From: Sphingomonas hengshuiensis
Lineage (GTDB): Bacteria > Pseudomonadota > Alphaproteobacteria > Sphingomonadales > Sphingomonadaceae
Assembly: GCF_000935025.1 (NCBI RefSeq)
Contig: NZ_CP010836.1
Location: forward strand, 682,001 to 746,000
Length of the DNA stretch: 64,000 bases
Reading direction: 5' to 3'
Positions 43,477 through 45,635 of the stretch are shown here, one piece after another. The position numbers and the translations under genes are program-made. The notes beneath the pieces were generated by a model, which did no database searches, was not told the origin of the DNA, and saw nothing but the letters and a program-made list of their open reading frames with translations. Each line of letters starts with the position of its first letter. Position 1 is the stretch's first letter.

Positions 43477-44183
43477 AGGCGCCCCTTCTCCTCGCCGCCG
43501 CGATGCTGGGTGTGGTGCCGCAGGGTGCGCAGGCGCAGGCGCAGATGTGCCGCGTGCCCGCGCGGGTGCCCGCACCGCATCCCGATCTCCCGAGCGACCG
43601 CGAGCCGCGCCGGGTGCTGCCGATCGGCAGCTACACGCTCGCGCTGAGCTGGAGCCCCGGCTATTGCCGCGGGCATGGCGACGATCCGAAGGCGGCGTTT
43701 CAGTGCGGCGGGGGCAATCGGTTCGGCTTCACGCTGCACGGGTTGTGGCCCGATGGCGTGGGCAGGGAGTGGCCGCAATATTGCCGGGCCACGGGGATCG
43801 TGCCCGCGCCGGTGATCCGCCAGACTTTGTGCGCGACGCCCTCGGCGCAGCTGATCCAGCATGAATGGGCCAAGCACGGGACCTGCATGCCGGGCAGCCC
43901 GCAATCCTATTTCGCGACCGCGCGGGGGCTGTACGGCAAGGTCCGCTATCCGGACATGGCCGCGCTGTCGCGCGCGCCGCTGACCGTGGCGGGGTTCCGC
44001 TCCGCGATGGCGCGCGCCAATCCGGGGATGCCCGCCGACGCGATCCGCGTCACCGCGACGCGCGAGGGCTGGCTCGACGAGCTATGGCTGTGCCTGGACA
44101 AGGCGCTGCGCTATCGCCGGTGCACCCCCGGCAGCGGCGGGGCGCCCGATGGTGCGGCGCTGCGGATCTGGCGGGGAAATTAG
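43473..44183 (+). CDS. Ribonuclease T2 family protein
   Basis: 236 residues with a signal peptide (about 1-21, ending AQAQ). The catalytic His segments are FTLHGLWPDG (CAS I, about 89-98) and HEWAKHGTC (CAS II, about 130-138). Several cysteines suggest disulfides in the periplasm. It probably degrades extracellular or periplasmic RNA. It is translationally coupled to nadC. Confidence 0.93.
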   Translation: MKAPLLLAAAMLGVVPQGAQAQAQMCRVPARVPAPHPDLPSDREPRRVLPIGSYTLALSWSPGYCRGHGDDPKAAFQCGGGNRFGFTLHGLWPDGVGREWPQYCRATGIVPAPVIRQTLCATPSAQLIQHEWAKHGTCMPGSPQSYFATARGLYGKVRYPDMAALSRAPLTVAGFRSAMARANPGMPADAIRVTATREGWLDELWLCLDKALRYRRCTPGSGGAPDGAALRIWRGN

Positions 44184-44227
44184 CCGCCCGGTTTCAGTTT
44201 CGCTGAACTGCCCCCTTGTATCTGGAC

Positions 44228-44416
44228 GAGCACGGCTCGTTTCTGCTGGAAGCGACTGAGCGCCGGTGTGGGTGGCCACCCACACCGGCGTGGCGGCGAT
44301 GTCGCCCGTTCCCCCTCAGGTGCTCACCCGCGTCGGAGCCAGGGATCATCGCCGTTGTCACGCACGACCGAACAGTCGGTTGATTCTCAATCGCACAGAC
44401 AAGTCAGGTTACCGTG
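44228..44416 (+). ncRNA. Candidate bridge RNA of the IS110 element
   Basis: The non-coding 5' end of IS110-subgroup elements encodes a bridge RNA that pairs with target and donor DNA. This 189-base stretch has the right place and length and holds a perfect 30-bp palindrome at 44261-44290 (arms CGCCGGTGTGGGTGG) plus weaker hairpins. The guide loops were not worked out. Confidence 0.4.
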
Positions 44417-45346
44417 ATGCGCAACCTTTGTGGAGTGGATGTTTCCAAAGCCTGGCTCGATAGCTGGTCCGCCGGACGATATCAGCGTTTCGCCAACACG
44501 GCAGAAGGCGTCGCGCAACTGCTCGCCTTCTGCCGCGAACACAGTGTCGAACTGGTCGTGATGGAGGCGTCGGGAGGTGTTGAGCAAGCGGCCTTCCTGG
44601 CGCTGTGGAAGCAGGGTCAGCCCTGCGCCATCGCCAACCCCAGGGCCGTTCGCAGCTTCGCCGACGCCATGGGTAATCTGGAGAAGACAGATCGCATCGA
44701 TGCCGAGATGATCGCCGGTTATGCCGATGCCAGACAGCTGGTCGCCACGCCTCCGCCGTCTGAGGATCAGCGCCGGCTGACGGCACTTACGGCCAGATTG
44801 CGCCAGGTTACCGCCGATCTCTCGGTCCAGAAGCAGCGGCTGCACAGCACCAGTGAGCCCACCGCATTGGCGAGCCTGAAGGAGGCGATTGCCTTTTTCA
44901 ACCGCCAGACCAAGGCGCTTGCGGCCGAGATCGCGGCGCTGATCACCGCCGATCCGCTCTGGGCCGAACTCGACAAGACCATTCGTTCGATCAAGGGCCT
45001 TGCCGACAGAACCGTTGCCGTCCTGCTCGCCGACCTGCCGGAACTCGGCACACTCTCGAACAAGGCCATCGCCAAGCTCGCGGGCCTTGCTCCCCTCGCC
45101 AACGACAGCGGACAGCGCAATGGCCGGCGCCGCGTTCGGGGCGGAAGGCCTTCCGTCCGATCGATCCTCTACCTCGTCGCCGACGTCGCCAGAAAATACG
45201 ACGACGATCTCGCCAGCTTCCGCGACCGGCTGCTCGCACAGGGCAAGGCGAAGATGGTCGTCCGCATCGCTCTTGCACGAAAATTACTCGTCAGGCTCAA
45301 CGCAAAAGCCCGCGATGCACGCGCGCAAATGGCCCATGCCCTTTGA
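44417..45346 (+). CDS. IS110-family transposase
   Basis: 309 residues from the ATG at 44417; a GTG just before it is also possible. The RuvC-like DEDD domain has the first Asp in LCGVDVSKAW, Glu in VVMEASGG and the Asp pair in KTDRIDAEMIAGYA. The C-terminal domain has IKGLADRTVAVLLADLPEL and GGRPSVRSILYL, where the catalytic Ser is expected. Both domains look intact. Confidence 0.93.
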   Translation: MRNLCGVDVSKAWLDSWSAGRYQRFANTAEGVAQLLAFCREHSVELVVMEASGGVEQAAFLALWKQGQPCAIANPRAVRSFADAMGNLEKTDRIDAEMIAGYADARQLVATPPPSEDQRRLTALTARLRQVTADLSVQKQRLHSTSEPTALASLKEAIAFFNRQTKALAAEIAALITADPLWAELDKTIRSIKGLADRTVAVLLADLPELGTLSNKAIAKLAGLAPLANDSGQRNGRRRVRGGRPSVRSILYLVADVARKYDDDLASFRDRLLAQGKAKMVVRIALARKLLVRLNAKARDARAQMAHAL

Positions 45347-45394
45347 CAAACCAGATAGTCGCTTCGACGACGCCTGCGGCGTCGCTCTGGACAG

Positions 45395-45420
45395 GCTTCG
45401 ACAAGTTCAGGGCGAACGGG
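45395..45420. repeat. Half of a REP-like palindrome (type B)
   Basis: GGCTTCGACAAGTTCAGGGCGAACGG matches one arm of the complete element at 57177-57239 with one change. The other arm is not on either side of the IS110 element. Confidence 0.6.
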
Positions 45421-45455
45421 TGGGGGGATCAAGCCAACCTCGTGACGAAGTAGCG

Positions 45456-45635
45456 TTAGCGCCGCGCGCGATCGATCAGCCAGACGCCGATCGTCAGCGC
45501 CAGCCCGACGCCAAGCCCGCCGACGAAACCGACCGAGGGTTGTCCGGCGATCGCGCCGATCACCGATCCGGCGACCAGGCTGATCGCGAGCAGGAAGCCG
45601 CCGGCCAGCGGCGTGCGGGAGGGGGTGTTTGCCAT
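45456..45635 (-). CDS. Small two-span membrane protein
   Basis: 59 residues starting MANTPSRTPLAGGFLLAISL. Two hydrophobic Gly/Ala-rich helices (about 10-30 and 35-53) and a basic end. No family recognised. It is divergent from the SLC13-type transporter and has a plausible GAGGG-like site upstream. Confidence 0.55.
   Translation of the reverse strand: MANTPSRTPLAGGFLLAISLVAGSVIGAIAGQPSVGFVGGLGVGLALTIGVWLIDRARR

Follow-up and report, generated by a model that had tools for sequence, protein, structure and literature searches.

An IS621-like insertion sequence of Sphingomonas hengshuiensis with a probable bridge RNA in its left end and a target readable from its guides

An IS110-type transposase gene preceded by a long non-coding stretch raises the question of whether this stretch encodes a bridge RNA and, if so, which target that RNA would read. 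We addressed the question for a locus in the window, by which we mean the whole stretch of 64,000 nucleotides analysed (positions 682001-746000 of contig 1 in a genome of 5.23 Mb). The locus is very probably an IS110-group (IS621-like) insertion sequence with a bridge RNA encoded in its left end. Judged from its sequence, it is a real, apparently complete IS621-like bridge-RNA element, a further member of a known bridge-RNA class. The agreement between guides and targets and the pairing within the leader both exceed chance. The idea of a bridge RNA in the left end was proposed in an earlier note on this DNA, and it is supported because compensatory changes in the leader, guide-target agreement, clean empty sites with a CT core and a promoter over the joined ends all point the same way. 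The features are collected in Table 1.

Table 1. Features of the element and its insertion site, in window coordinates
Feature	Position	Strand	Evidence or remark
Whole IS110-group element, 1147 bp	44215..45361	+	Genome copies, end comparison, empty sites; left CT core to base before right CT core
Left CT core	44215..44216	+	End comparison and empty sites
Right CT core	45362..45363	+	End comparison and empty sites
Left target of window copy, CTGCCCC	44208..44214	+	End comparison, guide comparison
Right target of window copy, TCGACGA	45364..45370	+	End comparison, guide comparison
Right part of dispersed REP-like repeat holding window copy	45364..45419	+	L071 spans joint ungapped
-10-like TATCTG, left end	44219..44224	+	17 nt from -35 box over RE-LE junction; 3/6 consensus letters
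-35 box TTGACA, right end	45343..45348	+	Promoter complete only if a circle joins right end to left end
Bridge RNA (predicted), extent of covariance-model match	44254..44417	+	162.2 bits; overlaps transposase start codon; true 5'/3' ends may differ
5' stem-loop of bridge RNA (perfect palindrome)	44261..44290	+	Helix pairs changed on both sides; single-sequence folds
Target-binding loop	44294..44354	+	Fold and pair counts over leaders
Left target guide, GTTCCCC + core CT	44308..44316	+	Permutations and unguided scan
Right target guide, GCGTCGG + AG pairing with core; reads CT-CCGACGC	44330..44338	+	Permutations, unguided scan, type-level test
Putative handshake base C of the target loop, the complement of donor position 7 (G)	44339..44339	+	IS621 comparison (PMC11208158)
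Donor-binding loop (putative)	44358..44417	+	Fold of window leader; stems hardly vary; single-sequence folds support it poorly
Putative left donor guide ACAGTCGGT	44372..44380	+	Equals right end ATAGTCG-CT bar one base and core C (G here)
Putative right donor guide ACAGACAAG	44395..44403	+	ACAAG complements left end CTTGT; IS621 pattern (PMC11208158)
Putative donor-loop handshake base	44404..44404	+	T in L001 and L002, G in other 27/29 rows; L047 not among rows
Transposase/recombinase ORF, 310 aa	44414..45346	+	GTG start, ATG at 44417; residues D9 E51 D93 D96 S232
Predicted contrasting targets of the two natural guide alleles			CCCCCTCCGACGC vs CCCCCTCCGTCGC

The intact IS110-type transposase described at the outset is borne out by profile searches: both IS110 Pfam domains exceed their cut-offs (PF01548, E 4.6e-22; PF02371, E 2.4e-13), and the NCBIfam model NF033542, 'IS110 family RNA-guided transposase', gives 173.3 bits against a cut-off of 140. 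Among PDB sequences, IS621 and ISCro4 are the only ones matched at E 0.001 or better. The catalytic residues of IS621 are E60, D102, D105 and S241 (PMC11208158), which would correspond to E51, D93, D96 and S232 here if the numbering of the PDB chain is offset by 2, as we read it. In an alignment of 28 of the 30 copies (L047 and L022 omitted), D9, E51, D93 and D96 are kept in all 28 proteins and S232 in 27, the single gap fitting L026, whose reading ends at 217 aa. D9 lies outside the printed IS621 alignment and is assigned by position and conservation alone. The protein has, in other words, the DEDD residues and the catalytic serine of an IS621-like element. A weak resemblance to TIGR-Tas (NF052498, residues 123-264) reached 25.2 bits, far below the cut-off of 100, and that assignment was rejected.

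Searching the genome with positions 44100-45500 returned five copies: the window copy (L001) and four further ones (L002, L003, L004 and L005) with 98-99% identity to it. The stretch that the copies have in common starts with CCCCCTTGTATCTGG and ends with AGATAGTCGCT. The ends were located with the motifs CTTGTATCT and AGTCGCT, so that their constancy at these motifs holds by construction and the empty sites are the independent evidence. Since the five copies of the same genome and the empty sites agree, the element limits are 44215-45361; the span of 44221..45392 proposed earlier had to be corrected, its right end being wrong. The same applies to the motif TCTGGAC, which had been taken for a terminal feature containing the CT core. 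Its left occurrence (44221-44227) begins 6 nt after the core start and thus lies inside the element, its right occurrence (45386-45392) belongs to the flanking repeat and is absent from the right flanks of L002-L004, and the cores themselves are elsewhere. What did stand was the general shape of the element, a long non-coding left end and a short right one, as in IS110/IS621-like elements, with sizes revised to 199 nt before the GTG start and 15 nt between the stop codon and the right core. One of the copies, L005, is without a right end, and its left flank gives the impression of resembling another transposase gene.

Comparison with empty sites, the check suggested together with the initial observation, produced clean CT-core empty units both in the same genome and in another genome of the genus. 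With the element removed, the flanks of L004 match three units of its own genome straight over the joint for 112 bases (L058, L059 and L060; 93, 92 and 91%), the core position being CT in L058 and CA in L059 and L060. The joined flanks of the window copy match L071, in another genome of the genus, over 66 bases without a gap (95.5%), again with CT; further empty units match them as well, some of them gapped beyond the core. Because the joined flanks match empty units cleanly, insertion adds one CT and removes nothing visible, that is, a CT core is found at both ends of a scarless insertion. The repeat units match both strands at the same place and are therefore palindromic, dispersed and REP-like. 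Thus, according to the sequences compared, the element would insert into REP-like palindromic repeats at a CT core with no further target duplication. REP sequences are already known as targets of such elements (PMC1525189; PMC11208160). In the units occupied by L002-L004 the CT arm is taken and a CA arm is left beside each element (at 4827022, 2433545 and 2682690). The arm motif TCCKCCCCCWCCG has 20 matches in the genome, 10 with CT and 10 with CA, vs 2 in the control; that L002-L004 are all at CT arms is weak on its own (1 in 8). The full target 12-mer CCCCCTYCGNCG is not enriched in the genome (18 vs 14 for the reversed control) and was expected to be common, and CCCCCTCCGWC occurs 3 times in the genome vs 4 control matches, all 3 inside known repeat places. 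As for the distribution of the dispersed REP-like repeat at 45364-45434, some part of the joined-flank query is matched in 74 of 101 genomes of the genus, a number to which matches with the flanking gene contribute.

The leader of the window copy, when folded as 44252-44425, forms three stems at -79 kcal/mol (z -2.96; 2 of 200 shuffles as good): a 5' stem-loop, a stem enclosing an internal loop and a stem reaching the start codon. This three-stem fold was not seen when a longer stretch was folded. The 5' stem-loop is the perfect 30-bp palindrome pointed out in the earlier note, and the claim is accurate, with 15-nt arms and no spacer. We wrote the structure from the IS621 layout on L015 and counted it on alignment A2 (16 of the 19 distinct leaders; L003, L017 and L023 absent), so it was not derived blind. 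Under this structure 95.2% of 624 cells are paired, 15 of 39 pairs are changed on both sides over the 16 leaders (1 of 500 shuffles as high), and the covariation score of 0.333 is reached by none of 500 shuffled alignments (0.109) and compares with no more than 0.095 when the structure is slid. The two-sided changes fall in the 5' stem-loop (10 of 13 pairs) and in the outer stem of the target loop (5 of 11; helices 2-4). Pairs of the donor loop are conserved, with 0 two-sided changes over the 16 leaders, and folds disagree on the third stem-loop. In minimum-energy folds of single leaders, a stem was counted if half or more of its named pairs formed. The 5' stem-loop was recovered in all 16 leaders and the outer stem of the target loop in 7-8 of 16. 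For the donor outer stem the number is 9 of 16 at its exact extent and 2 of 16 with more flanking sequence, and for the donor inner stem 0 of 16. A conserved fold among relatives, which had been named as the thing to look for, is accordingly found: the 5' stem-loop and the target-loop stem are kept over the 16 leaders. In the structure that RNAalifold gave on another alignment, A1, the right donor guide is paired with bases 1-5 of the left end; this clashes with the IS621 scheme, and the structure was set aside. At curated thresholds Rfam has no match anywhere in the window; with the limit relaxed to E 10, the leader has 5 matches, all far under the gathering score, the best of them (E 0.075) on the other strand.

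The function proposed for the leader depends on its target-binding loop, in which the left guide would equal the left target and the right guide would be the reverse complement of the right target. This is what the copies have: on the 5' side the letters that precede the core are those of the left flank, and on the 3' side the letters that precede AG give the reverse complement of the right flank, so that the left guide would pair with the bottom strand of the left target and the right guide with the top strand of the right one. We analysed 30 copies (the partial loci L024, L025, L027, L028, L029 and L031 were excluded), and permuted guides and flanks over 27 of them, representing 24 distinct combinations, leaving out L005 and L047, which lack the right and the left end, respectively, and L023, which has an N in its left flank. 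The right guide agrees with the right flank in 124 of 168 Watson-Crick positions (permutation mean 88.3, maximum 111) and the left guide with the left flank in 115 of 168 (mean 88.5, maximum 106); none of 20,000 permutations was as good in either case. An unguided scan without the same three copies compared 5-column leader windows, in both senses, with 5-nt windows of 20 flank bases per side. Ranked by how far agreement exceeds expectation, the first of its 13,312 comparisons matches the right guide with right-flank positions 1-5 (113 of 120); an overlapping neighbour of the right guide comes second, and the left guide, matched with left-flank positions -6 to -1, third. When the eight right-guide types are used once each, 1 or 2 of 40,320 permutations, identity included, match the true pairing. 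Depending on the scoring, 4-6 of the 8 guide types fit their own targets strictly best, or 6 or 7 with ties; 5-letter Watson-Crick scoring gives 5 and 7, respectively. Fits are not uniformly good: out of 7 right-guide positions L026 pairs at 3 plus 3 wobbles, L019, L053 and four L052-type copies pair at 4, and the poorest left guide, that of L046, fits at 3. By such sequence comparison the target of the window element is readable from its guides, and for the window allele it reads CCCC-CT-CCGACGC. The right target that the window copy actually occupies differs from its own guide by one G-T wobble and one mismatch.

Could this agreement be due solely to the shared ancestry of the elements and the repeats around them? 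Related elements do occupy related repeats, and permutations at the level of copies leave relatedness in, with those of the eight types removing part of it. Nevertheless, the type-level result remains as rare as stated above, other leader windows agree less with the flanks, and, as seen from the empty units, the flanks belong to host repeats that exist without the element; we consider this explanation extremely improbable. Hardly more credit is due to the possibility that the structured leader serves to control translation of the transposase and that the protein alone picks the target. It is true that the RNA overlaps the start codon and that for ISPpu9, which resides in REP sequences, regulation by sRNAs and 5'-UTR structure has been reported (PMC8450116). 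However, translation control predicts no match between leader and flanks, whereas the guide segments head the unguided scan, and their change with the flanks over eight guide types speaks against targeting by protein only. The leader may have a regulatory role besides guiding.

A different matter is whether the window copy is a dead passenger, immobile despite its intact-looking leader and ORF. The putative donor-loop handshake base is T where 27 of 29 rows have G, and the imperfect fit to its own right target points in the same direction. On the other hand, L001 and L002 have the same T and an identical leader at two different sites; a variant shared by two sites has probably moved at least once, and we therefore see immobility as unlikely. 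With these alternatives weighed, an element guided by a bridge RNA from its left end remains our reading.

The copies of this genome carry two alleles of the right target guide, GCGTCGG in L001-L003 and GCGACGG in L004 and L005, which are one target-reading base apart; an inserted C and a nearby A/T change further separate their leaders. The guide of L002 reads CCGACGC and its site is CCGACGC, that of L004 reads CCGTCGC and its site is CCGTCGC (7/7 in both), and the site of L003, CCGGCGC, has one wobble with the GCGTCGG allele. At the deciding base the sites therefore have A, A and G (a wobble) for the U-bearing guide and T for the A-bearing guide, and host repeat units carry A, T, G or C at this position. 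In all four copies that have both ends, the site suits the copy's own allele at this base, a hint of allele-specific targeting that is only suggestive: relabelling these four copies gives the same agreement 1 time in 4. It is tempting to speculate that this is natural retargeting within one genome and that single mutations in the guide may let the element keep up with host repeats as they drift, an idea to which we would assign about even chances.

On the donor side, the right end is GATAGTCG-CT and the left end is CT-TGTATC. The putative donor loop contains ACAGTCG and ACAAG, which are complementary in the IS621 manner (PMC11208158) and would pair with the junction over AGTCG and CTTGT. Being nearly invariant, these guides carry no covariation signal, and the proposed donor pairing with the RE-LE junction is weakly tested. 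The letters of the IS621 right donor, C8 T9 T10 G11 T12 A13 T14, are those of the left end of the window element, CTTGTAT (PMC11208158). Unlike in IS621, the putative left donor guide has a G (44379) facing the core C, a mismatch, in L001-L005 and L014; the other 23 of 29 rows have C there.

Joining the right end to the left one would give TTGACA-N17-TATCTG, so a rebuilt promoter is present by sequence, with a weak -10 box. TTGACA at the 17-nt spacing is found in 14 of 15 distinct junctions and TTGACC in the remaining one; mononucleotide shuffles reach the score of the window junction in 8 of 1000 cases and those of the other junctions in 2 to 85 of 1000. In IS621 a promoter is rebuilt over the RE-LE junction (PMC11208160). 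If the element works as IS621 does, the recombinase would excise it as a circle, the RE-LE junction would rebuild the promoter from which the bridge RNA is transcribed, this RNA would pair with the donor junction and the target, and the DEDD and serine active sites would exchange strands at CT.

At E 1e-60, a draw of the family returned the element's own genome alone (1 of 298) and a draw of the class 4 of 385 genomes including its own; the family of one of these gave 2 of 298. Among viral contigs, 14 stretches matched a pattern and none was a relative. The element of Sphingobium terrigena (L014) is 80% identical, and others at 53-63% come from Mesorhizobium, Rhizobium, Bradyrhizobium and two metagenome bins. 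To see how far the leader reaches we used a covariance model, R1, built from A2; the window leader is one of its rows, so that its own match is not independent. As a chance level, the rest of the window scores up to 13.6 bits, and the palindrome or leader read on its reverse strand 25-27 bits. R1 matches upstream of the ISMno29 gene and over its start at 59.0 bits (E 1.8e-9). Of 5 other plasmid relatives, 3 have a match upstream at the expected place, with scores of 16.0-18.8 bits that alone prove nothing. In a scan of the genome that carries the window copy, the five copies score highest; they are followed by reverse-strand matches to their leaders (26-28 bits), by ten places at 20.0-20.7 bits (E 1.25-1.78) and by a single one at 17.2. 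The ten places all lie just upstream of a second IS110 type, whose near-identical copies amount to one observation.

This second type (L129-L138) has 10 copies, with GTCATG before a core-like CT in all of them. GTTCAG, which is CT-GAAC in reverse complement, is present in its leader, and at its other end there is another REP-like palindrome, one with CATGCTGAAC. One of the copies, L133, directly follows L003, its Pfam match beginning 360 bases past the end of the matched ORF of L003. Contig 1 has 34 PF01548 matches in total, all above cut-off, which makes this an IS110-rich genome.

Of the known systems, IS621 is the nearest in design: it too has a DEDD and serine recombinase, a CT core, a bridge RNA in a long left end with a 5' stem-loop, a target-binding and a donor-binding loop (predicted here, the donor-binding loop being putative), a promoter over the RE-LE junction and REP targets (PMC11208160). 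The two nevertheless differ. The protein match spans residues 20-292 (E 7.7e-28), the target is another one, the window element has the 30-nt perfect palindrome as its 5' stem-loop, and its right guide has 5-7 pairs vs 4 described for wild-type IS621. ISCro4 (PDB 9t56) is the second PDB match (E 1.6e-26) and was compared by protein only. ISMno29, from a Methylobacterium nodulans plasmid, has a transposase 39.9% identical to the present one and the R1 match at its gene start. The IS1111 group with its seekRNA has a related transposase type and RNA-guided target choice (PMC11187229). However, its RNA region is described downstream of the gene, and with a right end of 15 nt the window element has neither such a region nor a long right end, so membership in that group was rejected. 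Among the open papers listed on bridge RNAs, seekRNAs and REP targeting, no title names the window element.

In summary, the window element has a further probable bridge-RNA recombinase, 310 aa long, whose target is readable. The G facing the core C would be a departure from the pairing scheme of IS621 that is open to a simple assay. The guide alleles that coexist in this genome, in turn, allow testing of natural target change by such elements.
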